Shown in pieces: positions 1,925-37,975 of a DNA stretch of 45,235 nt (position 1 is the first letter of the stretch; each line of letters starts with the position of its first letter). The translations under genes were made by a program, and so were the position numbers. Origin of the DNA: a virus; IMG/VR virus record IMGVR_UViG_3300032331_001681, positions 1 to 45,235 of that record; one strand, given 5' to 3'. A model generated the notes under the pieces. The model had not been told where the DNA came from. It did not search any database and saw nothing but the letters and a program-made list of their open reading frames with translations.

Positions 1925-4228
1925 ATGCCCCATCAAGCGCTCAAGCTTCAGCCAGGCGTCGATCAGAACAAGACGCCCGCGCTCAATGAAGCTGCAATCT
2001 CGGAAAGCCAGCTTATCCGGTTCATCCCGGATCGGACTCTTGGCGGATTGGTACAGAAACTGGGTGGCTGGACAAAGTTTTATGCCAACAAGATCGGCTC
2101 TACAGTCCGCTGTCTATGGGGATGGGAAGATACCAACTCAAATTCTTATTTGGCCGTTGGCGCGGAGGGCGCATCTCCCATTGCTGTCACAGGCGCGAGT
2201 GGCACAGGAACTACGGCTACGTTGACGTTCACGGGCCCGTTCTCTTTTGTCGTTGGGCATTTGATAACAGTCAGCGGTGTAAATCCTAGTGGATATAATG
2301 GGACCTATACGATCACTGCAACCACTTCTACTAGCGTGTCTTACGCCAGTGCTACTACGACTCCGTATGTATCTGGAGGGTTGATAACTGGCGGCGGCGG
2401 ATCGTTGGAAGTCATTATCAGCGGCGGCAGTCAGGACATCACGCCTGAGAAACTTACGGTCAACACAACTGTAAGCTTCAGCACCACATCAGGTAGCGAT
2501 GTGGTGACCGTTTTTGATACTGGCCGCAATACAAGCGATTTCTGGGTTGTCGACATAAAAACCCAGATCAGCGTTGGCGGTCTCATCCTCTTTGGGCAAT
2601 ATCAAATCTACAATCCGGGTCTAACGGCAAACCAATATAACATTTACGCTACGGATGTTGGCGGCTCTCCTAGCAACGCAACCTTTACTGTCGCTAATGG
2701 CGGTTCCGTCTCGTTGTTTACAACTGCTGCTGGACTGCCTCAAGTAAATGTCACCCTCAACAATCATGGATATATTGCGGGTGAAACTTTCCCAATTCTT
2801 GTGGCTACTTCTGTTGGCGGAATCACTTTGTACGGGAATTACACTATTGTTAGCATCGCAGATGCCAATAATTTTGTAATCAATGCCACATCAATTCCCA
2901 CCACAAGCGCTTCCGCATCAGAAAATGGCGGTCAAGTTCAGTTTGTTTATTACAATGGCGTTGGCCCGTTGCCGCCGGGGATTGGGTACGGCATCAGTGG
3001 CTATGGATTCTATGGATACGGCGGAACGATTTCTGGCACGAGTGCCCGTGGGGTTCCTATCAACGCAACGGACTGGACCTTAGACAATTGGGGCGCAACC
3101 CTGATTGCCAGCCCGCTCAGTGGGCCTGTTTACGCATGGAATCCATCTGCATCAAATGCAGTGGCAAGCATCATCGCTGCTGCGCCACCTGTTAATCTGG
3201 GCGTTTTTGTTGCAATGCCCCAGCGTCAGATTATCGCGTGGGGTTCGACATTTACAGGCATTGCAGATCCGTTGTTGATCCGTTGGTGCGATGTCGATAA
3301 CTACGATCAGTGGGCTGCGTCGATCACAAATCAAGCAGGCTCATACCGAATTCCAAAAGGGTCGCGAATTGTTCAGGGCATTCAGGCCGGTCAGCAGGGT
3401 CTGATATGGACTGATCTTGGCGTTTGGGCGATGCAATATGTCGGACTTCCATATGTCTATCAGTTCAATGAGCTTGGGACTGGGTGCGGTTTGATTGGCC
3501 GCAAGGCTGCTGGTTCGGTAAACGGAATCGTTTATTGGATGGGCGCAAGCCAGTTTTATAGGCTTTCTGGCAGTGGTGTTGAACCCATTCGTTGCCCCGT
3601 TTGGGATGTTGTTTTTCAGGATCTGGATACGACAAATCTTGACCGTATCAGAGTTGCGCCCAACTCTCGCTTTGGCGAAATCACTTGGTATTTCCCCACC
3701 ATCAGCAATGGCGGTGAAAACTATGGCTACGTCAAATACAACTTTGTTTTGGACCAGTGGGATTACGGGTTCAACTCTGCGTCTAATCCCTATGTGGCGC
3801 GGTCTGCGTGGATCAACGAGTCGGTTTTGGGTGCGCCAATTGGCGCAGGCTTAAACCAATACATCTATCAGCATGAAACATCGACGGACGCTGATGGAAC
3901 AGCTATGAACAGCTACTTCCAAACAGGTTATTTTGCTTTGACGGAAGCCGATGTCAAAAGCTTCATAGATCAGGTTTGGCCTGATATGAAATGGGGTTAC
4001 TATGATGGTACGCAAGGTGCCAATATCTTGCTGACCTTCTATGTAACTGATTACCCCGGACAAACGCCAACAGCGTATGGCCCCTACACTTTGACGCAAG
4101 CAACAACCTACATCACCCCACGATTCCGTGGCCGTTTGGTTGCGATAAGGGTCGAGAGTGATGACATTGGCTCGTTTTGGCGTCTTGGGAATATGCGCTA
4201 CCGCATTCAGCCCGATGGGAAGTTCTGA
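1925..4228 (+). CDS. Tail nozzle / tail tubular protein
   Basis: This 767-residue, Gly/Thr/Ser- and Tyr-rich protein is predicted to be mainly beta strand. It begins MPHQALKLQPGVDQNKTPAL and soon has LGGLVQKLGGWTKFY, a KxxGW-type motif common at the start of nozzle or stabilisation proteins of short-tailed phages. Residues about 80-310 contain repeated Ig-like or propeller-like strands, and the C-terminal half (YRIPKGSRIVQGIQAGQQGLIWTD onward in meaning) resembles the propeller of nozzle proteins. It follows the adaptor with a 3-base gap. A baseplate or spike role is the alternative. Confidence 0.62.
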   Translation: MPHQALKLQPGVDQNKTPALNEAAISESQLIRFIPDRTLGGLVQKLGGWTKFYANKIGSTVRCLWGWEDTNSNSYLAVGAEGASPIAVTGASGTGTTATLTFTGPFSFVVGHLITVSGVNPSGYNGTYTITATTSTSVSYASATTTPYVSGGLITGGGGSLEVIISGGSQDITPEKLTVNTTVSFSTTSGSDVVTVFDTGRNTSDFWVVDIKTQISVGGLILFGQYQIYNPGLTANQYNIYATDVGGSPSNATFTVANGGSVSLFTTAAGLPQVNVTLNNHGYIAGETFPILVATSVGGITLYGNYTIVSIADANNFVINATSIPTTSASASENGGQVQFVYYNGVGPLPPGIGYGISGYGFYGYGGTISGTSARGVPINATDWTLDNWGATLIASPLSGPVYAWNPSASNAVASIIAAAPPVNLGVFVAMPQRQIIAWGSTFTGIADPLLIRWCDVDNYDQWAASITNQAGSYRIPKGSRIVQGIQAGQQGLIWTDLGVWAMQYVGLPYVYQFNELGTGCGLIGRKAAGSVNGIVYWMGASQFYRLSGSGVEPIRCPVWDVVFQDLDTTNLDRIRVAPNSRFGEITWYFPTISNGGENYGYVKYNFVLDQWDYGFNSASNPYVARSAWINESVLGAPIGAGLNQYIYQHETSTDADGTAMNSYFQTGYFALTEADVKSFIDQVWPDMKWGYYDGTQGANILLTFYVTDYPGQTPTAYGPYTLTQATTYITPRFRGRLVAIRVESDDIGSFWRLGNMRYRIQPDGKF

Positions 4229-5767: not shown

Positions 5768-8700
5768 ATGGGCGGTGGCGGCAAAGGTGGTACCACCACA
5801 CAGACAGTATCTATTCCGCCAGAAGTTTTGGCGCGGTATAACGCTGTCAATGCCAGGGCTGAAGAAACGGCAAAACAGCCTTTTCAGCAATATGGCGGTG
5901 AATTTGTTGCCCCGCTGACTCCTACGCAGACCGCTGGCATCCAAGGCACCAACGTCGCTGCTAGCCAAGCGCAGCCTTATTTTAATGCCGCAACTCAAGG
6001 CCTTTTGGGCGCTCAGCAGGGCGGCGCTAACTACATTGGCGCGGCCACTAATGCCGCATTGGCTGGGGCAATGCCAGTCAATCCGGGCGGTCTTCAGGTT
6101 GGCCGCTACATGAACCCATTTACCCAAAGCGTTGTTGGAGCAACCCAAGCCGCTATGGGTCAGCAGTTTGGTCAGCAACAGGCTCAGCAGCAAGCTGAAG
6201 CTATTCGCGCTGGCGCTTTTGGCGGTGATCGTTCTGGTTTGCAGCGCCAAGCATTGCGTGGTCAGCAGGCTCTTGCAGGGGCCCAGGCCATTGCCCCCCT
6301 TTATCAGCAGGGTTACCAGCAGGCGCTTCAGACAGCGCAGCAGCAACAGGGCGTTGGCCTTGGCGCGGCTCAAGCAAATCGTCAGGCAATTCAACAGCTT
6401 AGCCAGCAACTTGGTGGCCTTGGACAACAGGGCTACACAATGGGCGCTGGCGCTTCTCAGCAACTTGCCGGTCTTGGCACTGGTGCGCAGCAGGCTGCTT
6501 TGCAGGGTTCGCAGGCGCAGTTGGCGGCTGGTCAAATTGCTCAGCAGACTCAGCAGGCGCAAGATACCGCTCAGTATCAACAGTTTTTGCAAGAGCGTGG
6601 CTATCCATTCCAAGTGGCTCAGTTCTTGGCGAACATTGCCATGGGCACTGGCGCGCTGTCTGGTTCGACAACGACGACGCAACAGCCTGGCGGGTTCTTC
6701 TCTGATAAGCGCCTCAAGGATGATGTTAGAGAGATCGGCGAGACCCATGATGGTCAGCCAATCTACAGCTATAAGTACAAGGGTGATGACCGCACCCAGA
6801 TCGGTCTTATGGCGCAGGATGTCGAGAAGAAGCATCCTGAGGCTGTTGGCCTCATGGGCGGTTACAAGACCGTTGACTATAAGAAGGCTACCGAAGACTC
6901 AGAGCGCTCCCATAAAGATATGGGCGGTGGCTTGGTGCCTGATGGTTATGACTACAGCTCCATGGGCGGCGCAGTCACCTCAGACATGGCTGGCGAAGGC
7001 TTTGAGCGCGGCGGCTATGTTGGCGGGGGCCTTGTCGGCAACGATGACTGGGCTCAGATCATTGCGGCCAACAAGCAGGCTCTTGGCGTCTACGGCGGTC
7101 AGCAACCTATGGGTGGCGGCGCGCCGGGCGCAATGGGTGGCCTAAACATCCCCACATCTATGGCAACGCCCAAACTCATTACCGCTGGCGCGGCACCTAA
7201 ACAGCAGCCTTCTGGTATGTCTAGCGCTATGCAAACCGGCAAGGATATTGCTGGAATTTATAAAAGCGGCAAAGAAACTGTCGCCGATCTTGGGAAAGCC
7301 AAAGATTGGCTTAAGGAGAATATTTTTGCTGCCCATGGTGGCTTCATTGTTCCCCGCCACGCATATGCTGATGGCGGCAGTGAAGACAGCCAAGGTGAAG
7401 AGGCTGTGCCCTATGATCCTAGCGATGTCATGGGCGGCAAGGATCCTATGGAGGGCGTACTCAAGGCCGGGTCTCAGAAGCATGAGATGTTGAAGCCTGC
7501 TAATGCCCCTGGCGGAAGCGGTGGCGGATCAGGGCTTGGCCTTGGAAAATTGGCTGGCTCTGCAATAGGATCTGCTTTTGGCCCACTTGGATCAATGGCT
7601 GGTGGTTTCCTTGGCGGCTTGCTCCCGTTTGCTGAAGGCGGTCTTGTCCCGCGCCAAGGGTATGACGAGGGCGGTCCAGCAGAGCCTCCGTCTCTCGACA
7701 AGGACCCAACGCTTGGGCTCATTTCCAAATTTGAAGGGTTCCGCGAGCGCCCATACTGGGATGTTAACGCGCTTCGTACTGGGTTTGGATCCGACACAAT
7801 AACGCTCCCCAATGGAACTGTGCAGCGTGTTAATGAGGATACTCGGGTTTCTGTAGAAGATGCGAAGCGAGATCTTGCGCGCCGTACCGCAGAGTTTCAG
7901 GGCCACATTAAAGGCGCTGTTGGTGATGAATCTTGGGGCAAACTTGATCCCAATTCTCAAGCGGCACTGACTTCTGTAACCTATAACTATGGCCGTCTTC
8001 CCAAGTCCGTTGTGGAGGCTGTAAAATCAGGCGACAGAGCATCAATTGGGGCTGCGGTTAACGCTCTTGGCGTACATAATGAAGGCGTCAATGCGCGCCG
8101 TCGTGCAGAAGAGGCGTCTCTTATTGATCCTGAAGGCAAATATATGATGTCTTCAGCAGCACCTCGTCCACCGGGGCTTGTTGGTGGTGGCTTGCAGGCA
8201 TCTGCGGCTCCTACACCTTCTGGCGCGGGAGAGAAGAAGGGCCTTGGTGACATCGTTACCTCTGAGGGCTTCATTGTCCCCGCACTCGGCTTCCTCGGCT
8301 CTATGCTAGCGTCCAATAAGCCCAATCTTGGTCAAGCCCTTGGCGAAGGCATCATGGGCGGCGTTGGCGCTTACCAGACCCAGAAGAAGCAGACTGCTGA
8401 GCTTGCAAAAGGTGTTTTGGACATTGTTAAGGATCGGTTTCATCTTTCAACTGATCCAAAAACCGGGCAGACAGTTTACTTCAATAAAGCAACTGGGATG
8501 CCGATTTCCGCTGGCCAGTATGCCCAAGCTGTTGGCGGCATCGCAGATTCTCTGGGTGTCCCCCGTGGCATCCTTGGTATTCCTACAACAGGTATTGATC
8601 TTCCCAGCATTAGCGGTGGTCCAACAAAGCCTGGTGAGTTCTCTCGCCCTGGCGTGACGGCTAAGCCTGGTGAGGAGGCAAAGCCGGGGGAAGCTGCGCC

Positions 8701-14874: not shown

Positions 14875-15358
14875 CTTTTTTGCTCCTGGGTGGTTCCATC
14901 GACATTGGATTGAGATCTTCTTCAGGTACGCGCCAAACAGTTGTCTTATTGTTCACCCATGGTGCCAGATACTTGTCTTGCTTGGCATCCGCGCCACGAA
15001 GCCAGCCGCAGACCCTGTAGTTTGGCGAGCATCCTTTGACGAGGTAGTAGAAGTAGTTTGGATTGTCTTTCGGGTAGATCAGAAGGCCGTAGTCTTCCCG
15101 GTTAGTGGTGCGGACGCCTATGTCTTCACCGAGATCCGGCTTGCCGTAGGTGTTAATACCGCCAGGAAAGTGGATGTTCAAAACTTTGGCTACACACACT
15201 TCTCCCATCGCGCCCTCAATGTGCGATGTCAGAGGTGTCATCTTCTCCCCTGTAAAACCCTCAGAATACTCAGATCCCCTTTGGTCAGAGGCATATTGCC
15301 GGATGGTGCCAGCGTTAGACGCACTCAACATCTCAGGAAGATTAAGTTTTACTTTCAT
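14858..15358 (-). CDS. Hypothetical protein, possible nuclease-fold
   Basis: The 166-residue product contains EGAMGEVCVAKVLN (about residues 48-61), then KPDLGEDIGVRTTNREDYGL, then NYFYYLVKG and GWLRGADAKQDKYL. The order helix-with-GE, PD..., xVRT, strand is reminiscent of PD-(D/E)XK-type nuclease folds, with VRTT where E-x-K would be expected. That reading is tentative, because the key lysine is not obvious. The gene overlaps both neighbours by 17 bases, indicating tight coupling. Confidence 0.55.
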   Translation of the reverse strand: MKVKLNLPEMLSASNAGTIRQYASDQRGSEYSEGFTGEKMTPLTSHIEGAMGEVCVAKVLNIHFPGGINTYGKPDLGEDIGVRTTNREDYGLLIYPKDNPNYFYYLVKGCSPNYRVCGWLRGADAKQDKYLAPWVNNKTTVWRVPEEDLNPMSMEPPRSKKDDATA

Positions 15359-15872
15359 TCTTGATGGTCCTTACAAGGGTGTAGTAGCACAACTTCGCAT
15401 GCCCTTCGCAGTAAGACCCGCGCTCCTTTGGTTGCCCACAGAACAAGAAGTCCTTCACGCTTCCGCTATTGATGACATACCGACACGACCGTGATGTCAG
15501 TTGCTCGAACCTCAGTGGCTCACCCACTGGCGCGGGCACTTCCTTGTGAAAGACAAAGTTAACAGCGTTACCCACGGGCTCTGCGTTTACCTTTGCCAAG
15601 GGTATGAGCTTGTCTTCTATCTTGTATAGGCTTACCTCTGGAGGCTTCTGTTTTGTCAATTCTGGAGAGCGGCCAGCATTAGCTTTCCTTGATTGCTCTT
15701 TGATGATGAACAATCGCTCATCGACGTTCCTCTTCTCTATGCGGCCAGATATCTTAAAGCGATGGAGCTTACCCGCAATTGTGTTGCGGGTGAGCCCTAG
15801 TTCGTTAGCTATGTGCTTGGCTGTGTGCCCCTTCTGCCATAACTCAATCATCTTTTCATCTATGTCTTCCAT
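15342..15872 (-). CDS. gcrA-like: GcrA-family transcriptional regulator
   Basis: The 176-residue protein begins MEDIDEKMIELWQKGHTAKH and continues IANELGLTRNTIAGKLHRF, the GcrA helix-turn-helix signature (W-x-G-x-[ST]-A-x-x-I-A, then R-N-x-[IV]-x-G-K-x-H-R). The C-terminal SCRYV...FLFCGQP...SYCEGH repeats the family's Cys/His ending. Length matches Caulobacter GcrA (about 173). GcrA proteins bind sigma-70 and methylated GANTC sites to activate promoters. In this phage a GANTC-dense block lies at 28.9-31.9 kb. The start at 15872 is coupled to the upstream stop (TGATG); a GTG at 15875 is less likely. Confidence 0.85.
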   Translation of the reverse strand: MEDIDEKMIELWQKGHTAKHIANELGLTRNTIAGKLHRFKISGRIEKRNVDERLFIIKEQSRKANAGRSPELTKQKPPEVSLYKIEDKLIPLAKVNAEPVGNAVNFVFHKEVPAPVGEPLRFEQLTSRSCRYVINSGSVKDFLFCGQPKERGSYCEGHAKLCYYTLVRTIKNESKT

Positions 15873-16213
15873 CACCTGAACTCACCTACAGGCTCTTCTG
15901 CCGGTACTGTTACGGCCATGTGAACAGCCTTCTCAAGGTCATAGGGATCCTTCTCTTCGGTAATCAACTCACCGGCAAAGGCCATATAGTTGACCCCATC
16001 AATGTAGTGGTCAGGATTCTTTCGATCACTGCTGAGCCGCGACAGCTTTACAGCATGCAAGACCAAGGCAACATCGTGGGCCGTCAAATGGATGCCGGTG
16101 ATGAGGGTTGCAATCTGAGCCACGTTTTCCATACCCACGCGCATGTCTCCATACTTTGGGTTTCTCTCATTGAAGACTTCTGCTGCGTTTCTCATGATGT
16201 CGTAGTAGTTCAT
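15872..16213 (-). CDS. DUF6378-type phage protein
   Basis: The 113-residue protein contains AAEVFNERNPKYGDMRVGME, then NVAQIATLITGIHLTAHDVA and VKLSRLSSDRKNPDHYIDGV with a terminal NYMAFAGEL. The YGD, dV..vm..vKlsR and D...D..nY elements match the DUF6378 family, helical proteins related in shape to MazG-like nucleotide pyrophosphohydrolases. A role in nucleotide housekeeping is possible but not shown. It is coupled to the GcrA-like gene. Confidence 0.7.
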   Translation of the reverse strand: MNYYDIMRNAAEVFNERNPKYGDMRVGMENVAQIATLITGIHLTAHDVALVLHAVKLSRLSSDRKNPDHYIDGVNYMAFAGELITEEKDPYDLEKAVHMAVTVPAEEPVGEFR

Positions 16214-16228
16214 GGGTATCCCCTTTGA

Positions 16229-16537
16229 TTAAAAGTTGCGGGTGGCTGGACGCTTAAAGGTACGCTTCTGAACGTCTGCATCTTTGTCGGTATCGAAGTC
16301 TATGAACTCTTGTGCTTTACCGATCCAGTGCGTGTTGACGATGATCTCGCCGCGATCTTGGAACCATATTTCTCCATCTTGGCCTTGGCGACGATAGAAC
16401 ATGCGGAAGATGATGAACTCTTGCTTGTTCAAGAGGGCGCACATCTCCTCCTGAGAATTTACAGGATGCTCTAACGTTAGCTGGTGGGTATCCATGCCAT
16501 TGATGCTTGGCATGTTCATTGTGACTAAGAATCGCAT
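16229..16537 (-). CDS. Hypothetical early protein
   Basis: The 102-residue product has a central strand-helix region (HPVNSQEEMCALLNKQEFII) followed by RMFYRRQGQDGEIWFQDRGE and IIVNTHWIGKAQEF, ending in a basic tail KRTFKRPATR. The pattern resembles small phage proteins of unknown role. It overlaps the HNH gene by 13 bases. Confidence 0.6.
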   Translation of the reverse strand: MRFLVTMNMPSINGMDTHQLTLEHPVNSQEEMCALLNKQEFIIFRMFYRRQGQDGEIWFQDRGEIIVNTHWIGKAQEFIDFDTDKDADVQKRTFKRPATRNF

Positions 16538-23467: not shown

Positions 23468-23842
23468 ATGTCTTATCGCGCCTTATCATGGGCCGCAAAG
23501 CAGGCTCTTCCAGCTTATGAAAAGCTTGTCCTGCTTATGCTTGCAGACAGAGCGGATAGCCATGACAAGTGCTGGCCTTCAGTACCCAAGCTTATGAAGG
23601 ATTGCGGCATCTCTAGAGCGCAAGTTCAAAAGTGTCGGAAGAAGCTAGAAGAACGTGGGCTTGTCCGCAGAGATGCCCAGACGAGAACCTATGGCCAAAC
23701 CTCAAACATGTACTATCTGGACTTAAACGTTACAATTGAGCATGAGGTCAGTACCCCCGCCTCCAATAGAGGCCCCCCCGCCTCTAATAGACGCCCAGAA
23801 CCAGTAACCATTAACCAGTCAGTAGGATCTCTGGCATCCTAG
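23468..23842 (+). CDS. HTH_36-type replication initiator-like protein
   Basis: The 124-residue protein starts MSYRALSWAAKQALPAYEKL, then LADRADSHDKCWPSVPKLMK and DCGISRAQVQKCRKKLEERG, a winged-helix of the HTH_36 type found at the N-terminus of phage replication O/DnaD-like proteins. The C-terminus (STPASNRGPPASNRRP) is Pro/Ser-rich and disordered. It precedes helicase and primase genes. It probably binds DNA at the origin or acts as a regulator. Confidence 0.65.
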   Translation: MSYRALSWAAKQALPAYEKLVLLMLADRADSHDKCWPSVPKLMKDCGISRAQVQKCRKKLEERGLVRRDAQTRTYGQTSNMYYLDLNVTIEHEVSTPASNRGPPASNRRPEPVTINQSVGSLAS

Positions 23843-28906: not shown

Positions 28907-29122
28907 CTATCGCTGGAGTCGTTTCCGGCGCGATAGCTCGAAAGTAATAGAGTCCATTTCAGCCAATAGCTTAACCACATATGGATCCCTTGTGTCGCGT
29001 TCGCGATATATCGGGAGAGTCGCGGCGATATCGGTTAAGGCATGGTTTAATTCGGCAATGGGCTTTCCCTTGGCGCGGGTTTCATACCATGCGAGGGAAT
29101 AGGGCGCGGGCTCAATTCTCAT
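28907..29122 (-). CDS. Hypothetical small protein
   Basis: The 71-residue product begins MRIEPAPYSLAWYETRAKGK and continues with helical PIAELNHALTDIAATLPIYR. GGAGTCGTC lies before the ATG; here the ribosome-binding site itself creates a GANTC. A basic C-terminus (SRRKRLQR) is present. No family recognised. Confidence 0.58.
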   Translation of the reverse strand: MRIEPAPYSLAWYETRAKGKPIAELNHALTDIAATLPIYRERDTRDPYVVKLLAEMDSITFELSRRKRLQR

Positions 29123-29174
29123 TTGACGACTCCATGTTAAGCTTGATTGTTAGCGTTACTGGCGACTCATAGGC

Positions 29175-29209
29175 AAAAAAAAGAGCCGGGGCTTATCCCG
29201 ACTCCTTTT
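29175..29209 (-). terminator. Rho-independent terminator
   Basis: GAGcCGGG (29183-29190) and CCCGaCTC (29197-29204) form a stem with one mismatch. On the minus strand it is followed by eight U residues (29175-29182), ending the leftward unit 29990-29213. A shorter CTTTT follows on the plus strand. Confidence 0.68.
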
Positions 29210-29212
29210 CGA

Positions 29213-29293
29213 TTAGATGAAACACAAGGCGCACAATCCGCCCACGAAAAGCCAGCACACAAGCGCTGCAATAAGTTCGATTGTCTTTTCCAT
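29213..29293 (-). CDS. Small membrane peptide
   Basis: A 26-residue frame starts after AAGGAGTC and reads MEKTIELIAALVCWLFVGGL then a hydrophobic end CALCFI. It is a single transmembrane helix with three Cys. The strong ribosome-binding site and the terminator immediately after the stop argue for a real gene. Confidence 0.55.
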   Translation of the reverse strand: MEKTIELIAALVCWLFVGGLCALCFI

Positions 29294-29303
29294 GTTTGAC
29301 TCC

Positions 29304-29990
29304 TTATGCGGCGATAGCATCCGCCTTGCGCTTTTGAACCCCATGGGCGGGGAAACCCACAATAGCGTCACGTTGCAAGGCGCAAAGCCCGCATGATGCG
29401 CAAGAAACCTCGTCTCGATATGTGGCGGGACAAACAACAATCTTGCGCCCTTGTGGCGTCGCAAGCTTAACATTGCCGTGAATGGTAGAAGGTAGCACTA
29501 CGGCAATGGGCGCAATATTGAGCGCCGCTAAATCATCCGCATGGGCGAGATTGTTTGCGCTTAGATTAACCGTGAAACCGTTTTTGTTGGCGCTCGCAAT
29601 GGCGTCACGGTTAGCCTCATTTGAGAGCGAGTCGTAATGAGTATATGTGAACCCGCGCTTTCCCTTGTTGGCGCGCACAAGCTTTGCCAATGCAATGGAG
29701 TCAATGGCGACTCCATCTCCCGGCAAGTCTCCCGCTTGATTGTGACGCCATAAGATTCCCTTGTTGAGTTTGGAGACTTGTTTCGTGAATTCATCCCATG
29801 CGACTCCAAGCTTGCGAGTCGTCACCTTTTGCCAAAAGAGATTCAGTGGACCGTTTCCCGCATAGCATCCGCCCTTATTATTGAATGGGCAAGCGGGGGG
29901 ACAAGTCTCGGCGCTTGTTGTGGAAACGGGAATCGGACCCGTTTTCGCATTGCGCGATATAGCAGTGAGGCTAACGTTATAATCTTGCAT
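29304..29990 (-). CDS. Cys-cluster protein of the DUF7227/Gp88-like type
   Basis: The 228-residue protein starts MQDYNVSLTAISRNAKTGPI. It contains TSAETCPPACPFNNKGGCYA, a C-x3-C-x7-C cluster, then a TIM-barrel-like sequence with HYDSLSNEANRDAIASANK and GFTVNLSANNLAHADDL. A second Cys cluster near the end (CASCGLCAL) may bind metal. The pattern matches phage families of unknown function (DUF7227, Gp88-like) that may be iron-sulfur proteins. The ATG at 29990 was chosen because GGAG precedes it; an upstream in-frame extension covers the promoter element. Confidence 0.65.
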   Translation of the reverse strand: MQDYNVSLTAISRNAKTGPIPVSTTSAETCPPACPFNNKGGCYAGNGPLNLFWQKVTTRKLGVAWDEFTKQVSKLNKGILWRHNQAGDLPGDGVAIDSIALAKLVRANKGKRGFTYTHYDSLSNEANRDAIASANKNGFTVNLSANNLAHADDLAALNIAPIAVVLPSTIHGNVKLATPQGRKIVVCPATYRDEVSCASCGLCALQRDAIVGFPAHGVQKRKADAIAA

Positions 29991-30025
29991 TTGATTGACT
30001 CCGTGTTCTGTAGTGAGAACGACTC

Positions 30026-30137
30026 GATTCTTATATGCATTTCCCGCACAATGCAACGTAATATTTTCGCCAGGCTTGTGTAATGAATTTATTACAAAAA
30101 TAGGGCTTGGCATATGCAGGAAATGCATATAAGAATC
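30026..30137. promoter_or_regulatory. Twin inverted 19-bp promoter elements
   Basis: GGAAATGCATATAAGAATC occurs on the plus strand at 30119-30137 and on the minus strand at 30026-30044, a perfect 19-bp inverted repeat 74 bp apart. Each copy points at the gene beside it, 36-39 bases before its ATG. Each has TTGnnn 15 bases upstream of TATAAG, and each ends in GAATC, a GANTC site. This looks like a pair of identical divergent promoters, possibly activated through GcrA-type control. Confidence 0.65.
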
Positions 30138-30175
30138 AGATCAAGTTAAACGGAAACAACAAACGGAGTCGGACA

Positions 30176-30733
30176 ATGGTTTATCATCTAGCGAAAAATG
30201 AAGTCCCGGAGTTTATGCGCGGCGCATATAATGGTAGCAAATTTCGCGCTGAGCCCACCACAAGCGTGACAATTAGATCAGATGCGGGATTGTGGCAAGG
30301 CGGGAGTCGTGATTTCTTTTATGCTATCGATCTGAAAACGGGGCGCAAGGTAGCATTGCCGGGACAAGATGGCGCGCCATGGGATGCTAGCCGTGAGACT
30401 CGCACAATAGATTTGTGCCCCGGCTATGCAATTGTGGAATCTAGTATCTTTTGTGGAAAGCATATGGGGCTTGTCTTTTATGTTCATCCCGATGATATCG
30501 CCCGGCTTATACCTAAAAATAGCGGCGCAGAATTATGTGACGTAGAAAAGCGGGTTCTTCGCATAATTGACGGCTATAAATCTTTTGCGCGCAATGATGA
30601 ATTTCGCCGCGCTGGAATTGAGCTAGGCGAGGTTGACGCTATCAAAGCCCGACTCATAAGCTTAGGCTTGTTGAATAAGGCGGGAGCGATAACGGTTAAG
30701 GGACGCAATGCTTGTGAAGGAGTCCGGCTATGA
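30176..30733 (+). CDS. Hypothetical protein
   Basis: The 185-residue product starts MVYHLAKNEVPEFMRGAYNG. Its first half is strand-rich (VTIRSDAGLWQGGSRDFFYA). Its C-terminal part resembles a winged-helix (EVDAIKARLISLGLLNKAGA, then ITVKGRNACEGVRL). CGGAGTC precedes the ATG. Function unknown; a regulator is possible from the wing-like end. Confidence 0.6.
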   Translation: MVYHLAKNEVPEFMRGAYNGSKFRAEPTTSVTIRSDAGLWQGGSRDFFYAIDLKTGRKVALPGQDGAPWDASRETRTIDLCPGYAIVESSIFCGKHMGLVFYVHPDDIARLIPKNSGAELCDVEKRVLRIIDGYKSFARNDEFRRAGIELGEVDAIKARLISLGLLNKAGAITVKGRNACEGVRL

Positions 30734-30825
30734 TCAGAACTAGAAAGATTGGCGGGATGCGATTCATATGGATTGGACGACTCGTCATTAGCTTTTGCAT
30801 AAAGAAAAAGAGGGACTCAAAATGA
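30730..30825 (+). CDS. Small basic peptide
   Basis: A 31-residue frame starts with ATG overlapping the upstream stop, has AAGGAGTC as ribosome-binding site, and ends in TGA overlapping the next start (ATGA). It reads MIRTRKIGGMRFIWIGRLVI then SFCIKKKRDSK, a basic peptide with a short hydrophobic core. Tight coupling supports translation. Confidence 0.45.
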   Translation: MIRTRKIGGMRFIWIGRLVISFCIKKKRDSK

Positions 30826-31052
30826 AATCACAATGGCGCATAATCAAAACAGATAGAAAACAATTTCCTTGGCGCTTGGAAAGCTTGCATCATCTAGATG
30901 ATGGGGCTTGTACGGGATGGGAAAAGCTATCGGATTACAAGACTCGCAAGGCGGCGATAACTGTAGGAATGCTAATGAGGGAAAGAGGCGAGTCGATATC
31001 ATGGCCGGGCGGAGCGATTAGAATGGGCTTGGCAATGGTGGAGTCATGTTAG
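30822..31052 (+). CDS. Small hypothetical protein
   Basis: The 76-residue product starts MKSQWRIIKTDRKQFPWRLE and has WEKLSDYKTRKAAITVGMLM. The start at 30822 sits in an ATGA overlap with a GGGAC upstream. It ends before a strong terminator. No family recognised. Confidence 0.55.
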   Translation: MKSQWRIIKTDRKQFPWRLESLHHLDDGACTGWEKLSDYKTRKAAITVGMLMRERGESISWPGGAIRMGLAMVESC

Positions 31053-31084
31053 CTTAAACACTAGAATAACCCGCGCCAATAATA

Positions 31085-31120
31085 GGCTGGAGTCATTGCG
31101 ACTCCGGCCTTTTCTGTTTT
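31085..31120 (+). terminator. Rho-independent terminator
   Basis: GGCTGGAGTC (31085-31094) and GACTCCGGCC (31100-31109) form a 10-bp stem (one T-G wobble) with loop ATTGC, followed by TTTTCTGTTTT. It ends the rightward unit before the terminase small subunit gene. The stem contains two GANTC sites. Confidence 0.8.
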
Positions 31121-31121
31121 G

Positions 31122-31135
31122 ACGACTCGAGTCGT
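31122..31135. promoter_or_regulatory. 14-bp palindrome with overlapping GANTC sites
   Basis: ACGACTCGAGTCGT is a perfect 14-bp palindrome containing GACTC and GAGTC. It lies 120 bases before the terminase small subunit gene, right after the terminator. It may be an operator or a methylation-controlled site. The intergenic stretch 31136-31256 holds no clear gene. Confidence 0.4.
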
Positions 31136-31256
31136 TTCCTTTGATTCGTCAATAGGTTATTGCGTGAAGCTTGGCCGTGTAACATTAGGCCTGGAGATTG
31201 TTAGCAAAATTGTTAGCGTCTGGAATGGTTCTACAGGCTTGTGATATGGTTTCCCT

Positions 31257-31904
31257 ATGGCGCTCAATTGTTGGCGCGGGAACATGGGGATTTCCACAAT
31301 GGCCGGAAAGAAAGCGCAAAGGGAAGCCAAGCCCTATAGCATGGGACAACTGAGGGAAAGCCTACAAGGCGCATTGCCCGATATCAAAGCCAAAGCCAAA
31401 GAGATGAATAGCGTAGTAAGACGCAAGCCATATAGCAAAGAGACTTTCATTAGGGTTTGCGAGCGTATGGCCGGAGGGGAAACGACAAGGGAAGCGCTAG
31501 ATAATGAGGGATTAGCGCCTAGCACATTTTATCAATGGTTAGAGCGGGAAGATGAAGAAGGGGCTTCTTTGCGGACTCTATTCGCGCACGCACGAGTCAT
31601 GCTAGCGGAGTCGGCTTTTGGTGAAGCATTACAACGGTCTAGGGCTTTGTTAGACGAGCCGGAGATTGACGCTGCACGTGTTGGCGCGGCGCGTCTGCTA
31701 GTCGACACTCTCAAGTGGTATGCGGAACGGCTAAACCCGCGCCAATATGCGATGCAACGAGTCGAACCCATAGCGCAAACGGTGCACAACGTGACAAACA
31801 ATAACTTGACCATGATTGACGGGGCGAGCTTAGGCGCTGATCAGCGTTCCGCCTTGCGCGCAATGCTCACACAAGCCCGCGACTCCAAACTAATCGAGGG
31901 ATGA
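31257..31904 (+). CDS. terS: Terminase small subunit
   Basis: The 215-residue protein recognises phage DNA for packaging. After a basic N-terminus it has KETFIRVCERMAGGETTREA and LDNEGLAPSTFYQWLEREDE, a helix-turn-helix with the S-T-F-Y-x-W motif. The core RVGAARLLVDTLKWYAERLN followed by PRQYAMQ is typical of small terminases. The C-terminus is the likely TerL-contacting end. Start is uncertain: ATG at 31257, 31284 or 31299 (MAGKKAQ) are all possible, and none has a strong ribosome-binding site. TerL lies 1.76 kb downstream, an unusual separation. Confidence 0.8.
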   Translation: MALNCWRGNMGISTMAGKKAQREAKPYSMGQLRESLQGALPDIKAKAKEMNSVVRRKPYSKETFIRVCERMAGGETTREALDNEGLAPSTFYQWLEREDEEGASLRTLFAHARVMLAESAFGEALQRSRALLDEPEIDAARVGAARLLVDTLKWYAERLNPRQYAMQRVEPIAQTVHNVTNNNLTMIDGASLGADQRSALRAMLTQARDSKLIEG

Positions 31905-31974
31905 ACTAAACTAAACTAAACATAACTAAACTAAATCACGCAACATAACTAAACTAAACTAAACTAAACTAATA
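31905..31974. repeat. CTAAA pentanucleotide tandem repeat
   Basis: About 70 bases right after the terminase small subunit stop consist of (CTAAA)n interrupted by CATAACTAAACTAAA (31921-31935 and 31944-31958) and a short CACGCAA spacer. A complementary stretch GGTTTAGTTTTAGTTAGTT (32025-32043) could fold back onto the array. It may be a packaging signal, a slippage-prone array or a binding site. Confidence 0.7.
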
Positions 31975-32205
31975 GTTTATGCACTTCGTCACCGCTCGGA
32001 GACAAAGCTTAACTATGTTTCTGTGGTTTAGTTTTAGTTAGTTGAGGTACCCTGACGGATGCCCACCCTAGGCCGCTGTCCAGAAGAGGCCGGGGGGTCT
32101 TAGGTACCAAATCCCCCCAGTGTTAACCCCACCAGTATGCGAATTCGTAATCCCCTCCACGTTAATACCACCATATCTGCGGTTATATACCATATGCCCA
32201 AGCTA

Positions 32206-32221
32206 TGTTTCACGTGAAACA
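32206..32221. other. parS: parS site 1
   Basis: Perfect TGTTTCACGTGAAACA, the bacterial chromosomal parS consensus bound by ParB. It lies in noncoding DNA. Confidence 0.88.
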
Positions 32222-32358
32222 CACCCCCCCCACTACCCCCGCCCTGTAGGTACCTGCTCTCTATACAGTGCGGCTTAGCGCGCTACCCCAGCGTAGGACA
32301 TAGGCATACCCCCGGTACTACCCCCCGGTGTTAGGTACCCTTTGGTATGTAGGTGAGA

Positions 32359-32374
32359 TGTTTCACGTGAAACA
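32359..32374. other. parS: parS site 2
   Basis: Perfect TGTTTCACGTGAAACA, 153 bp after site 1, in noncoding DNA. The flanking CACGTGG repeats half of the core. Confidence 0.88.
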
Positions 32375-32432
32375 CGTGGTCTTGGCTGTCCGCGCCAGTA
32401 GGTATGGTCAATGAGTTGTGGCTAAGCATATG

Positions 32433-32448
32433 TGTTTCACGTGAAACA
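32433..32448. other. parS: parS site 3
   Basis: Perfect TGTTTCACGTGAAACA, 74 bp after site 2; the palindrome extends to 18 bp (32432-32449). Confidence 0.88.
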
Positions 32449-32581
32449 CTGTTAGTCCTAGTTAGCTGTTAGCCTAACTATGGGTGGGGACCGGCCCCTG
32501 CAACAAGTCCGGCCCCCATGCCGAAGAGGGAGCTGCCAAGCAACTCTCCAGCAAAACCAGTATATCCCACTGGCGGGGGTG

Positions 32582-32707
32582 TTAAAAGTCAAATTTGATG
32601 GGCTGGCGGGCCTCCAGCATCTTGATAACCTGGTGCGCACCCAGGATCTCACCGGCCATCCCGGCCATCAATGGGTGTCTACCACACAGATGTTTCACGT
32701 GAAACAT
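32582..32707 (-). CDS. Small protein starting in parS
   Basis: A 41-residue frame starts at the ATG of the parS-derived MFHVKH, then LCGRHPLMAGMAGEILGAHQ and VIKMLEARQPIKFDF. It overlaps the end of the upstream gene by 13 bases. The MFHVKH start is the usual reading of parS in this frame. Composition looks protein-like, but the ribosome-binding site is poor. It may be real or a by-product of the parS site. Confidence 0.4.
   Translation of the reverse strand: MFHVKHLCGRHPLMAGMAGEILGAHQVIKMLEARQPIKFDF
32691..32706. other. parS: parS site 4
   Basis: Perfect TGTTTCACGTGAAACA (18-bp palindrome 32690-32707). It contains the stop codon of the gene 32695-32961 (-) and the start of the small frame 32582-32707 (-). 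Confidence 0.88.
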
Positions 32708-32961
32708 TTATGGGTTGCTGACCGCCATTTGCCATCCAGCAAAATGTAAGCCGTTTCTGGGTCACGGCCAGAAACCGTTACAATAATTCGGACATCCTTC
32801 ATTAACCTTTTGGCAAATTTGATTGCTCCGCTCATGTCTGTGCAATTTTTAGGGCATAGAATAAGATGAACCGACTTATCTATAAAATCTGCCTGTACCT
32901 CCATGAGAGAACACATGAGTTCCTTGTTAAACAGTTTGTCTGCGAGATCTACCTGATCCAT
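32695..32961 (-). CDS. Hypothetical protein flanked by parS sites
   Basis: The 88-residue product starts MDQVDLADKLFNKELMCSLM with GGGGGGAG upstream. It has a Rossmann-like strand-helix pattern (HLILCPKNCTDMSGAIKFAK, RIIVTVSGRDPETAYILLDG) and ends ATHKCFT with the stop inside parS site 4. parS site 5 lies 16 bp before its start. No family recognised; it does not resemble ParA or ParB. Confidence 0.55.
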   Translation of the reverse strand: MDQVDLADKLFNKELMCSLMEVQADFIDKSVHLILCPKNCTDMSGAIKFAKRLMKDVRIIVTVSGRDPETAYILLDGKWRSATHKCFT

Positions 32962-32976
32962 TTGCTCCCCCCTTCA

Positions 32977-33072
32977 ATGTTTCACGTGAAACATTTGGAG
33001 TCCGTTGTCCCTTTTTCAGAACACCCATCTTTCGATGTGACCAGCACGGACAAACACTGGCAAGTTAGTTAG
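32977..33072 (+). CDS. Very small possible gene starting in parS
   Basis: A 31-residue plus-strand frame begins at the ATG of parS site 5 (MFHVKHLESVVPFSEHP) and ends at TAG. No ribosome-binding site is seen. It is probably a by-product of the parS sequence, kept here because the same MFHVKH start recurs at site 4. Confidence 0.2.
   Translation: MFHVKHLESVVPFSEHPSFDVTSTDKHWQVS
32978..32993. other. parS: parS site 5
   Basis: Perfect TGTTTCACGTGAAACA, 287 bp after site 4, just upstream of the minus-strand gene 32695-32961. No further perfect site was seen elsewhere in the window. Confidence 0.88.
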
Positions 33073-33144
33073 CCGCTATGGAGCCATCCCCAATACCCGC
33101 TGACCTGTTGGCGCGGCTAAACCAACCGGGCGTTCCTTGGCGCG

Positions 33145-33408
33145 TTACTCTTCGCCACCCAAATCGTAGTCAGCTACCGTCCGGCCATTGTAGTTCATCA
33201 CATAGGCCATACCAAAGTCTAATGTTTTTGTCAGGCGACCACCATGAATCAGCGGGCCGGTGGTGTAGTGAAGTTTGCCGCGAATAAGATCGGCGCTAAA
33301 TGGTTTGTTTAGAGCAATAAGTTCTTCAGAGTTGTCTGTGTACCAAACGCTTTCGGCTTCAATGAGGTGTTCAGTGTTTTTATGGTCGATATGCTTGATG
33401 GTAAACAT
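33145..33408 (-). CDS. Hypothetical phage protein
   Basis: The 87-residue protein starts MFTIKHIDHKNTEHLIEAES with GGAGAG upstream, has a strand-rich body and ends AYVMNYNGRTVADYDLGGEE, a pattern seen in small phage proteins. It reads leftward from the divergent promoter pair at 33452-33484. No function assigned. Confidence 0.6.
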   Translation of the reverse strand: MFTIKHIDHKNTEHLIEAESVWYTDNSEELIALNKPFSADLIRGKLHYTTGPLIHGGRLTKTLDFGMAYVMNYNGRTVADYDLGGEE

Positions 33409-33451
33409 GCTGCTCTCCTACTGCTGCTATGACGGGAGATCCGTCCAAATC

Positions 33452-33484
33452 ACTATAGCAAAATAATCAACCATGAGCTATAGT
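33452..33484. promoter_or_regulatory. Divergent promoter pair with GCTATAGT boxes
   Basis: ACTATAGC (33452-33459) and GCTATAGT (33477-33484) form an inverted repeat with a 17-bp spacer. Each reads as an extended -10 (TGC or AGC before TATAGT) aimed at one neighbour: left gene 33145-33408, right gene 33508-33669 and TerL. No -35 box is clear. The same box is at 1119-1126. Confidence 0.5.
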
Positions 33485-33507
33485 TATATTGAATAAGGGG
33501 GATGCTG

Positions 33508-33669
33508 ATGCGCAAAAATGTTTCTAAACGCCGTTGGAAAGCCCGGCTCCTCATAGGCAAATGGATCCCAGGCATGGTGGTCTATCATTACGGCTTTGAC
33601 CGCATATATAGTGGAGCACTGGTCCAGCACCCCGAAATGGACTTCTACAGGATCGCCCCCATCCTATGA
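33508..33669 (+). CDS. Small protein just before terminase large subunit
   Basis: A 53-residue frame starts MRKNVSKRRWKARLLIGKWI, is basic at the N-terminus and ends YRIAPIL. GGGGG lies upstream at good distance, and its TGA overlaps the TerL ATG (ATGA), indicating coupling. A small DNA-binding or packaging accessory is possible; no family recognised. Confidence 0.58.
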   Translation: MRKNVSKRRWKARLLIGKWIPGMVVYHYGFDRIYSGALVQHPEMDFYRIAPIL

Positions 33670-35390
33670 CCACACTTACCCTCGACGGCCAGCAGATTGA
33701 CATTGAACGCCAGCTTGCAGAGCTGGATCGGGTAGATTGTGAAGAAAGCCTTTACGCATTCCTAAAGCACTCATGGAAATATATTGACGCATCCCCCTTT
33801 ACCGAGGGCTGGCCCATCGAGGCCATAGCGGAACATCTGCAAGCAGTCGCAGATGGTGAGATTCGCAGGCTTATCATCAACATTCCGCCCCGCATGGGTA
33901 AATCGTCCATCACCTCGTGCGCGTTCCCTGCGTGGGTGTGGGCGCAATCTCACACCAGCCCAACCTCTGGCGCGGGCGTACAGTTCCTTCATGCATCATA
34001 TGCTCAGCAGTTGTCCCTGCGTGATAGCGTCAAATGCCGCCGCCTCATTGAAAGCCCATGGTACCGCAGCCTCTGGGGCGACAGGTTCAAGCTCACTTCA
34101 GACCAAAACACCAAGGGGCGCTTTGACAATGACAAAAATGGTTCGCGCCTTAGCACGTCCGTTGGTTCGGCGCTTACTGGCGAAGGCGGATCTATTATTG
34201 TGGTCGATGACCCGAATGCCGCTCAAGAAGCATTCTCAGAAGCTACCATCGCATCAACCATCGAATGGTGGGACGGCGCGCTCTCGACCCGCCTCAACGA
34301 CCCCAAGACTGGCGCGTTTGTTGTCATCCAACAGAGGCTGTCTGAAGAAGACCTGACCGGCCACATCATGTCCAAGGACGAAGGCGAGTGGACCCACCTC
34401 TGCTTGCCCATGCGCTACGAATGGCAGCGGCACTCCGTTACCTCTATTGGCTGGAATGACCCCCGTGGCTGTGACGATGAAGGCGAACCCCTTGTTGAAG
34501 TAGATGATGACGGCAACCGAGTCGCCATCAACATTGAAGCTCAGATTGAGCTTGAGGAAACCCGCGAAGGTGAACTTCTTTGGCCAGATCGTTTTGGCGA
34601 GACCGAAGTCACTATCCTTGAGAAGCAGCTTGGGCCTTGGTCTGCAGCCGGTCAGCTTCAGCAACGCCCGGAACCCAAGGGCGGCGGCATCATAAAGCGT
34701 GAGTGGTGGCAGCCGTGGGATTCCCCGCATTTCCCCAATATGGACTTGATCATAGCAACGCTAGACACCGCATACACGACCAAAACCGAGAACGACCCGT
34801 CTGCCATGACGGTATGGGGCGTATTTTCAAGTGGAGTTTCTGTTCAATCTCCCAGCCATGCCGGTAACCGCCACGGTGAACGCATGGCCTATGAGCGCCA
34901 GTACACGGAAACCGCGCCAAGAGTTATGCTCATGCATGCTTGGCAAGGCCGGTACGAGTTGCACGATCTGGTCCTAAAGGTCTCTGACACATGCCGCAGG
35001 CTCAAGGTAGACACGCTGCTCATCGAGAACAAAGCCGCCGGGCATTCGGTTGCCCAAGAAATCCGCCGGATGTACGGGTTTGAGAAGTTTGGCGTCCACA
35101 TGTTTGATCCAAAGTCTCAAGACAAGCTGGCGCGGTTGTACTCGGTTCAACATTTATTTGCTGAAGGGTTAGTCTTCGCCCCCGCCAGGCAGTGGGCCGA
35201 GATGGTCATCACCCAAGTGGGCCAGTTTCCCAAAGGCAAGCACGACGATTTGGTGGATACCGTAAGCATGGCCATGAGGCATCTGCGCGAGACCGGGGCC
35301 ATCATGCGTGGCGACGAGTTCAAAGCAGAGCTTGAGGATAGCTTGGCCTTTAAGGGCAACAATCAGTGGACGCCGCTCTATCCAGTTTAG
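33666..35390 (+). CDS. terL: Terminase large subunit
   Basis: The 574-residue packaging motor has an N-terminal ATPase with Walker A-like PPRMGKS (74-80) and Walker B VVDDPN (about 179-184). Its C-terminal RNase H-like nuclease shows DTAYTTK (about 367), LLIENKAAGHSVAQE (about 452) and KHDDLVDTVSMAM, carrying the three expected acidic residues. It drives DNA into the prohead through the portal encoded downstream. Length is normal for this family. The overlap with the small upstream gene fixes the start. Confidence 0.92.
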   Translation: MTTLTLDGQQIDIERQLAELDRVDCEESLYAFLKHSWKYIDASPFTEGWPIEAIAEHLQAVADGEIRRLIINIPPRMGKSSITSCAFPAWVWAQSHTSPTSGAGVQFLHASYAQQLSLRDSVKCRRLIESPWYRSLWGDRFKLTSDQNTKGRFDNDKNGSRLSTSVGSALTGEGGSIIVVDDPNAAQEAFSEATIASTIEWWDGALSTRLNDPKTGAFVVIQQRLSEEDLTGHIMSKDEGEWTHLCLPMRYEWQRHSVTSIGWNDPRGCDDEGEPLVEVDDDGNRVAINIEAQIELEETREGELLWPDRFGETEVTILEKQLGPWSAAGQLQQRPEPKGGGIIKREWWQPWDSPHFPNMDLIIATLDTAYTTKTENDPSAMTVWGVFSSGVSVQSPSHAGNRHGERMAYERQYTETAPRVMLMHAWQGRYELHDLVLKVSDTCRRLKVDTLLIENKAAGHSVAQEIRRMYGFEKFGVHMFDPKSQDKLARLYSVQHLFAEGLVFAPARQWAEMVITQVGQFPKGKHDDLVDTVSMAMRHLRETGAIMRGDEFKAELEDSLAFKGNNQWTPLYPV

Positions 35391-35650: not shown

Positions 35651-37975
35651 ATGCCGATGACCCCCGGTTTGATGCCCAACATCAGGCAAGCTCCACCTGA
35701 AGATGAGGCCCTTGGCGGGGAAGACGCTCTTATTGAGATCATCGAGGACGGCGAAGACACCCCTAAATCCGATTCAAGCGGCGCGATCCTTGAAATTGAG
35801 CATGCAGACGGCTCGATAACCATTTCCCTCGATGGGAAACCCATTGACGACAACCGTAAAGAGCGCGACGAGACCGATTGGTACCGCAATCTGGTCGATG
35901 ATGTCGCTGAAGGCAACCTTAACAACATCGCACAAGAGCTTTTGCGCGGCATTCGGGACGATATCCAGAGCCGCAACGATTGGATCGAGGACCGGGCGCA
36001 GGGAATCAAGCTGCTTGGCCTCAAAATTGAGATCCCCGGTTTGCAGGGAGCCGCTGACGGGGCTCCGGTGGAGGGCATGTCTAAGGTCCGGCACCCGCTG
36101 CTGCTTGAAGCAGTGCTGCGATTCCAAGCAAATGCGCGTTCTGAGCTGCTGCCCACCGATGGGCCGGTCAAAATTCGCAATGACAACAACAACGCGACCC
36201 TTGAGAACGACCAGCTAGCCAATGCGTTGGAGAATGACCTTAATCATTACCTGACCGCGACCGCTACTGAGTATTATCCTGACACGGATCGCATGCTTCT
36301 TATGCTTGGTTTTGGCGGCACAAGCTTCAAGAAGGTGTATTTCTGCCCGTTGCGCAACCGCCCGGTCTCCGAGAGCGTTGATGCAAACGATTTGATCGTC
36401 AACAACGCTGCGACAGACCTACGTAATGCAAAACGCATTACACATCGGTCCTATATGCGTCCTAGCACGGTCAAAAGGCTGCAAATTCTTGGCGTTTACC
36501 GGGATATTGATCTATCAACGCCCAAAGAGCCTGATCTTGACAGCGTTCAGCGCGAGAAAAACGCCCAGCAGGGCATTAGCTCGGGGTCCATGAACCCGGA
36601 TGACCGTGATCGCGAGATCTATGAGGTCTATTGCGAGCTGGATCTGCCGGGTTTTGAGCATAAGCACAAGGGCAAGCCGTCTGGGCTTGAGATTCCCTAC
36701 ATTGTGACCCTCGATGTGTCGTCCAACCAAGTTTTGTCGGTGGTGCGCAACTATGCAGAGGATGATGCAGAGCTTCCGGTCGCTAAGCGTCGGTTTGTTA
36801 AGTACACTTTTGTCCCTGGCATGGGCTTCTATGACATTGGCCTGCTCCATATACTTGGCAATACGACGAATGCTATCACGGCAGCGTGGCGGGAACTCCT
36901 AGACGCTGGCATGTACAACAATTTCCCCGGTTTCCTTATGGCTGACACCGGAGCCCGGCAGAATACCAACATATTCCGTGTTCCTCCTGGCGGGGGTGCA
37001 TTGGTCAAGACCAACGGCATGCCCATCAATCAAGCTATCATGCCGCTCCCCTACAAAGAGCCGTCTGGAGCCCTGATGAACCTTGTCGTTCAAATGGCTG
37101 AGACTGGCATGCGCGTTGGCGGCACATCTGAAGTTATGGTGACCGAGGGTAAGCCCGATGCGCCCGTGGGCACAACGCTTGCTATGATTGAGCAGGCTCA
37201 AAAGGTTCTAAACTCGGTCCACAAGCGCCTCCATGCAGCTCAATCTGAAGAGTTTGAGATGTTGGTTGAGTGCTTCAAGGATCACCCAGAGAGTTTCTGG
37301 CAAAAGCGCCGGAAAGCAGCATATCCTTGGGACGAAAAGACATTTTTGGACGCGCTGGACAATTACTATTTTGTTCCGCAGGCGGATCCCAATACCTCAA
37401 GCCAAACCCAACGCCTTATGAAAGTGCTGGCGTTGAAACAGTTGGTGGCGTCCAATCCGTCTCTGTATGATCCAATTGCGGTCGATACGGCTGCGTTGCA
37501 GGCCCTTGGCTGGTCCAACCCGCAGCAGTTTATGATCCCGCCGTCTGCGCAGGGCAAGCCCCCGCCAGAGCTTATGCAGGCCATGGCTAAGGCCCAGAAC
37601 GACAAGAGCAACGCTGACGCCCGGATGCTGGATAGCCAGACCCGTGCGCAGGAATCTCAGGCTCGTTTGGAACTTGATCACATGCGGCTCCAGATGGAAA
37701 TGCAGCGCGATCAAGGTGACCCCGCCAAGATGGCTCAGGTTGATACGCAGCGGATGGAGATCCAGCAGCGCAATCAGGACACCATGTTTGACGCCATCAA
37801 CCGCAAGCGTGACCGCGAAAGCCGTGAGCGCCTTGCCGCCATTAAGCTTGCTGAAGAAGTCATGCGCAACCCCGATGGGCTTGCTGATGCTCAGCAATTT
37901 CTAGATCCTCAAATGCTTCAGCGTCTGGAGGGCAATGAGCCCACTCTGGACGGCACCAAGACTGGAGAACTGTAA
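35651..37975 (+). CDS. Portal protein
   Basis: The 774-residue protein forms the dodecameric DNA channel at the head vertex. After an acidic N-terminus, the core contains RHPLLLEAVLRFQANARSEL and TEYYPDTDRMLLMLGFGGTS, then LDVSSNQVLSVVRN. The C-terminal helical part (QTRAQESQARLELDHMRLQM) resembles a barrel. The size and pattern fit the large P22-type portals of short-tailed phages. It follows TerL and precedes the scaffold and capsid genes. Confidence 0.85.
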   Translation: MPMTPGLMPNIRQAPPEDEALGGEDALIEIIEDGEDTPKSDSSGAILEIEHADGSITISLDGKPIDDNRKERDETDWYRNLVDDVAEGNLNNIAQELLRGIRDDIQSRNDWIEDRAQGIKLLGLKIEIPGLQGAADGAPVEGMSKVRHPLLLEAVLRFQANARSELLPTDGPVKIRNDNNNATLENDQLANALENDLNHYLTATATEYYPDTDRMLLMLGFGGTSFKKVYFCPLRNRPVSESVDANDLIVNNAATDLRNAKRITHRSYMRPSTVKRLQILGVYRDIDLSTPKEPDLDSVQREKNAQQGISSGSMNPDDRDREIYEVYCELDLPGFEHKHKGKPSGLEIPYIVTLDVSSNQVLSVVRNYAEDDAELPVAKRRFVKYTFVPGMGFYDIGLLHILGNTTNAITAAWRELLDAGMYNNFPGFLMADTGARQNTNIFRVPPGGGALVKTNGMPINQAIMPLPYKEPSGALMNLVVQMAETGMRVGGTSEVMVTEGKPDAPVGTTLAMIEQAQKVLNSVHKRLHAAQSEEFEMLVECFKDHPESFWQKRRKAAYPWDEKTFLDALDNYYFVPQADPNTSSQTQRLMKVLALKQLVASNPSLYDPIAVDTAALQALGWSNPQQFMIPPSAQGKPPPELMQAMAKAQNDKSNADARMLDSQTRAQESQARLELDHMRLQMEMQRDQGDPAKMAQVDTQRMEIQQRNQDTMFDAINRKRDRESRERLAAIKLAEEVMRNPDGLADAQQFLDPQMLQRLEGNEPTLDGTKTGEL

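Follow-up and report, generated by a model that had tools for sequence, protein, structure and literature searches.

The mobile element SGI1 carries parS-like sites through which it hijacks the ParABS system of IncC plasmids, as documented by binding and stability assays (PMC10954446), and the parABS systems of phage-plasmids, exemplified by P1, N15 and the cyanophage Mic1 (PMC7156551), pair a phage-borne centromere site with the phage's own ParA and ParB. Lacachita-type phages encode ParB alone (PMC10286716). Among alphaproteobacterial phages, those with clustered host CtrA sites have been proposed to practise 'lytic deferment' (PMC9437464), and phiCbK-like phages encode the cell-cycle regulator GcrA (PMC3556154).

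The window analysed here, a whole IMG/VR entry of 45,235 bp, resembles SGI1 in carrying parS mimics only, with ParB and ParA, as we propose for the phage, encoded elsewhere; it differs in that SGI1 draws on a helper plasmid's system, whereas the carrier here is a tailed phage with the chromosomal motif, at its terminase locus, and no integrase detected. We regard SGI1 as the nearest precedent for the principle. With P1, N15 and Mic1 the window shares a centromere site on a phage genome but not the accompanying ParA and ParB, neither of which was found, and it mirrors the incomplete partition set of Lacachita-type phages, which have ParB without ParA where this phage has parS without ParB. The CtrA-site and phiCbK-like phages are similarly wired into the host cell cycle via host-factor sites or GcrA homologues, yet our record has parS and a cluster of GANTC sites and no TTAA-N7-TTAA CtrA box, while the work on CtrA-site phages reports no positional asymmetry of GcrA sites and leaves parS unmentioned in its main text (PMC9437464). 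In the literature searched, which lay largely outside subscription journals, we found no report of phages with chromosomal parS and no ParA or ParB, nor of phage parS at a terminase locus.

The preliminary description of the window had placed five perfect parS sites between the two terminase genes and held that such a cluster could not be due to chance. All five are indeed exact copies of the 16-bp palindrome TGTTTCACGTGAAACA, the consensus of chromosomal-type parS, and lie within the following arrangement:

31257 to 31904, plus strand: terS, terminase small subunit (phrog_1482; PF20901, Sf6-like)
31904 to 31972, strand not applicable: AACTA/ACTAAA short direct repeats, immediately 3' of terS
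31905 to 33665, strand not applicable: terS-terL spacer, mostly non-coding and the longest such stretch of the record, with parS sites 1 to 5 inside it
32206 to 32221, strand not applicable: parS site 1, exact match to the 16-mer
32359 to 32374, strand not applicable: parS site 2, exact match to the 16-mer
32433 to 32448, strand not applicable: parS site 3, exact match to the 16-mer
32691 to 32706, strand not applicable: parS site 4, exact match to the 16-mer, overlapping short ORFs of doubtful status
32695 to 32961 and 33145 to 33408, minus strand: two small ORFs in the terS-terL spacer
32978 to 32993, strand not applicable: parS site 5, exact match to the 16-mer
33666 to 35390, plus strand: terL, terminase large subunit (phrog_38)
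35651 to 37975, plus strand: portal protein (phrog_1216; PF23899, SU10 portal)

No further match with up to three mismatches occurs elsewhere in the whole record, and shuffled sequences contain a mean of 0.14 copies with none attaining five, which rules out a chance origin of the cluster. Only the site at 32691 touches potential coding sequence, in that it overlaps two small, mutually overlapping ORFs that are possibly not both real; the other four are non-coding. No other non-coding stretch of this gene-dense genome is as long as the terS-terL spacer, so that the positional pattern may in part reflect available space. Sigma-70 promoters and terminators were considered as an explanation of the spacer, and their counts are no higher than the chance level; the idea that the AACTA repeats are general replication iterons beside parS was likewise dropped, since they are shared with few relatives only (L173, L132) and form no general part of the locus.

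That the window lacks a ParA or ParB gene, as had been noted from its open reading frames, holds with Pfam models. The parB families PF02195 and PF17762 are absent from the record and from those of its own family (hereafter family 1), ParB_N matches none of 28 family-1 records, and no ParB_N match exceeds the cut-off among the further phage records searched. Across 21 records we detected no AAA_31 (PF13614) that would betray a parA, no HTH_ParB and no tyrosine integrase (PF00589), the last of which speaks against a prophage state. Neither the parB nor the parA that a phage-plasmid parABS would have was thus found. The phage presents sites with no ParAB of its own detected, one half of what makes an SGI1-type mimic; the other half, use of a ParAB in trans, is what we propose here. 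It is important to note that the record is incomplete with respect to a circularly closing 61 kb relative, with about 10-12 kb missing, and that this region contains no ParB in that relative. A phage ParB outside the record was looked for in the 28 family-1 records and not found, also not in the circularly closing G008 (61.1 kb with three sites; its ends overlap by 146 bp at 99.3% identity) and G007 (exact 127-bp end overlap); as these overlaps fit circularly closed assemblies, it is unlikely that an unassembled segment of either genome hides a ParB. A divergent phage protein, missed by Pfam, may recognise the same palindrome.

The phage motif is identical with real alphaproteobacterial parS. 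In a Maricaulis MAG contig (L342), the same 16-mer occurs at 3352 and 5369, on either side of a gene that we take to be mnmG, one copy 5' of that gene and the other at the start of the following one, and these sites are followed by parA (5947-6789) and parB (6786-7673), so that a chromosome uses the motif close to its parAB genes. More broadly, 24 of 60 Pseudomonadota genomes contain the 16-mer one to seven times each (control, 0), and a purine is preferred just 5' of it in phage and chromosomal sites alike.

Conservation among relatives, proposed earlier as support for the sites, is borne out in family 1. Of the best 80 terL relatives from an IMG/VR scan, a sample that includes near-copies of one virus, 38 have between one and five exact copies upstream of terL, and in two others a single-mismatch copy is the only one. 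Every relative with a clearly placed terS has its sites in the interval from terS to terL, even where the two genes are 4-5 kb apart (L154, L156, L170); in one relative (L142) a site lies upstream of the terS match, which is partial. Searching whole records with up to two mismatches returned sites in 20 of 21, against none for a reversed-pattern control, and the family-1 sites are confined to the terminase locus, a placement that is partly shared ancestry, since near relatives are non-independent samples. The 19 terS-terL spacers compared (38.7 kb) hold 54 perfect sites; a further three deviate at one base and not a single one at two to four, meaning that decayed copies are nearly absent, while spacer identity outside the sites is 46-89% between near relatives. 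The comparison with L127 is particularly telling: the terL proteins are 95% identical, the spacers align at only 46%, and no site is aligned to another site, yet each spacer holds four to five perfect copies. The sites therefore turn over and are re-made while the motif itself stays exact, and together these data show that the parS sites are maintained under selection. Members without parS occur in this family (e.g. L165) and in the second one described below, which indicates that a phage profits from the sites but can do without them.

Among the matches listed by a 16-mer scan of IMG/VR are many divergent phages whose site lies shortly upstream of terL. A terL accompanies 37 of these parS loci, and in 16 of the 37 the site falls within -250 to +60 of the gene start, where random site positions would give 1.6. 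Most of these phages group around the pelagiphages HTVC027P and HTVC023P (family 2), whose terL is about 28% identical to that of our record. An exact site lies at most 400 bp upstream of terL in 45 of the 69 such relatives with enough upstream sequence, mostly as one perfect copy near -108, with a subgroup near -1056, and over both families a site can be as close to terL as about 60 bp or as far from it as 4.7 kb. When 22 family-2 members picked for having the site are aligned, 15 of the 16 parS columns show no variation and only one sequence deviates in the remaining column, whereas column identity averages 48%. The site sits between two conserved upstream elements near the terL start, and in some members the parS segment is missing with the elements on both sides, the promoter-like one included, intact; parS thus behaves as a module. 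A terL tree with 89 rows, which carries long-branch warnings, requires 11 changes of the parS trait (gain and loss undistinguished); starred branches force at least eight of them, and rows without parS fall between the two families. One family-2 genome (G028, 57.5 kb) has an exact 301-bp terminal repeat (L340 1-301 and the end of L341), and its contig stops about 450 bp before terL, near parS; family-2 contig ends cluster 0-600 bp before terL and may be assembly breaks, so that a physical genome end beside parS in this family is suggestive only.

Perfect parS sites in phages in which no partition protein gene was found suggest that these phages recruit the host chromosome-segregation machinery, which supports the reading of the preliminary description that the sites probably attract host ParB. 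Given the identity of the motif, host ParB very likely binds the phage sites, and we consider it probable that the five copies are functional chromosomal-type parS loaded in cis by host ParB at the terminase locus. ParB-CTP clamps of the host would load at the phage parS and slide onto neighbouring DNA, and the resulting patch, similar to a partition complex, would tie phage genomes to the host ParA/ParB positioning system. Two much less credible readings dispute the identity of the sites themselves. The palindrome could serve some unrelated DNA-binding protein, of phage or host, as its operator and match parS by convergence: each of these phages encodes many proteins of unknown function, and ParB binding at the phage sites is something that we infer. 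Such convergence would have had to yield the full 16-bp consensus, perfect in two families and identical to chromosomal parS, along with a flank preference that agrees with that of chromosomal sites, and we hold it to be quite improbable. The presence of parS without parA or parB might also be read as what is left of a former parABS system or of host DNA acquired by transduction; this we regard as barely tenable, as perfect copies persist in diverging spacers and turn over, the relatives searched gave no parA or parB match, and the mismatch spectrum of the 19 spacers already speaks against it.

What the phage would gain from host ParB is less certain. Our tentative preference is for positioning or segregation of phage genomes in long or deferred infections, a role that would be apt in hosts under cell-cycle control, in line with the proposal for CtrA-controlled phages (PMC9437464). 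Since sites adjoin the terminase genes in both families, in family 2 between conserved elements close to the terL start, ParB beside terS and terL might instead mark the start of packaging, or regulate terminase or late transcription by spreading. Such a packaging- or late-expression-linked role would account for the sites staying at terS-terL, and the contig with the 301-bp repeat and the clustering of contig ends before terL can be cited in its favor; VirB, a ParB-like protein, offers a parallel in counteracting silencing from a distant parS-like site. Loss of the parS segment beside an intact promoter-like element, however, shows that the site is no core promoter part, its distance to terL is variable, and the contig ends are open to the assembly explanation given above, so that we rate this role as possible but rather doubtful. 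Replicated phage parS could finally act as a decoy that titrates host ParB and disturbs chromosome segregation and division. A genome with as many as five sites, copied further as it replicates, would serve this end, but many members have a single site, and sites used purely for titration could lie anywhere, yet these keep to one locus; we consider ParB titration improbable as the benefit. The preliminary description had named stable inheritance, polar positioning, condensation, a packaging-linked role and ParB sequestration as candidate uses; among these, the terminase placement in two families leans toward a packaging/late-region or positioning role over simple titration.

Recruitment of host ParB, if it takes place, may be accompanied by further ties to the host cell cycle, for which two additional features of the window are relevant:

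15342 to 15875, minus strand: GcrA cell-cycle regulator homologue (PF07750, 70.7 bits, cut-off 26.9)
28916 to 31885, strand not applicable: GANTC (CcrM-type methylation) cluster, 41 sites, 13.6 versus 2.1 per kb elsewhere

GcrA was found in nine records, each of them from family 1 and at least 34 kb long, and in no family-2 record. As GcrA has been described as an alphaproteobacterial regulator (PMC3667746), its presence in the record indicates that the host is probably an alphaproteobacterium; a terL search of genome contigs for the host returned two relatives, both MAG contigs, and was uninformative. GANTC is the CcrM site and is read by GcrA. The cluster spans several genes and ends inside terS, directly before the parS spacer; its 41 sites compare with a mean of 10 and a maximum of 20 in shuffles, and GANTC is the most enriched palindrome among those tested at 28.9-31.9 kb and is depleted across most of the record. 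A GANTC cluster near terS recurs in most family-1 relatives examined, the parS-less L165 included, but not in L142. The outgroup MW202675 (L203, L224), a 61 kb circular relative, has two GANTC in all, a near-total avoidance. The two phage methyltransferases gave no Pfam family above cut-off and no PDB match that could indicate GANTC specificity. The pac site of P1 similarly features clustered Dam sites at the small-terminase region, whereas the cluster here consists of GANTC rather than GATC and extends over about 3 kb; any part of it in packaging would be hypothetical. It is conceivable, if speculative, that host ParB at parS, phage GcrA and the GANTC cluster together tie the host cell cycle to phage genome positioning, to late expression or to packaging, with the parS part present in at least two distant families.

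If host ParB does load at these sites, they would represent a new route by which a lytic-looking phage can use the host chromosome-segregation machinery, in phages that are repeatedly recovered from environmental metagenomes. A testable link to a cultured system is provided by the pelagiphage HTVC027P, where a single site, one base off the consensus, is found at 16412 between the annotated terS and terL.

Other contigs also contain clustered parS. Two GC-rich viral contigs, in which ParB_N was undetected, hold two to three exact copies each (L066, 276-910; L027, 3235-3773), and two further GC-rich contigs (L090, L119) display arrays of parS with one or two mismatches every few hundred bases and are possibly bacterial origin regions misfiled as viral. 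Within the window itself, the replication-initiator (O-like) gene contains, at 23754-23819, two 21-bp repeats followed by 7-bp units, and short repeats inside an initiator gene resemble lambda-type origins.
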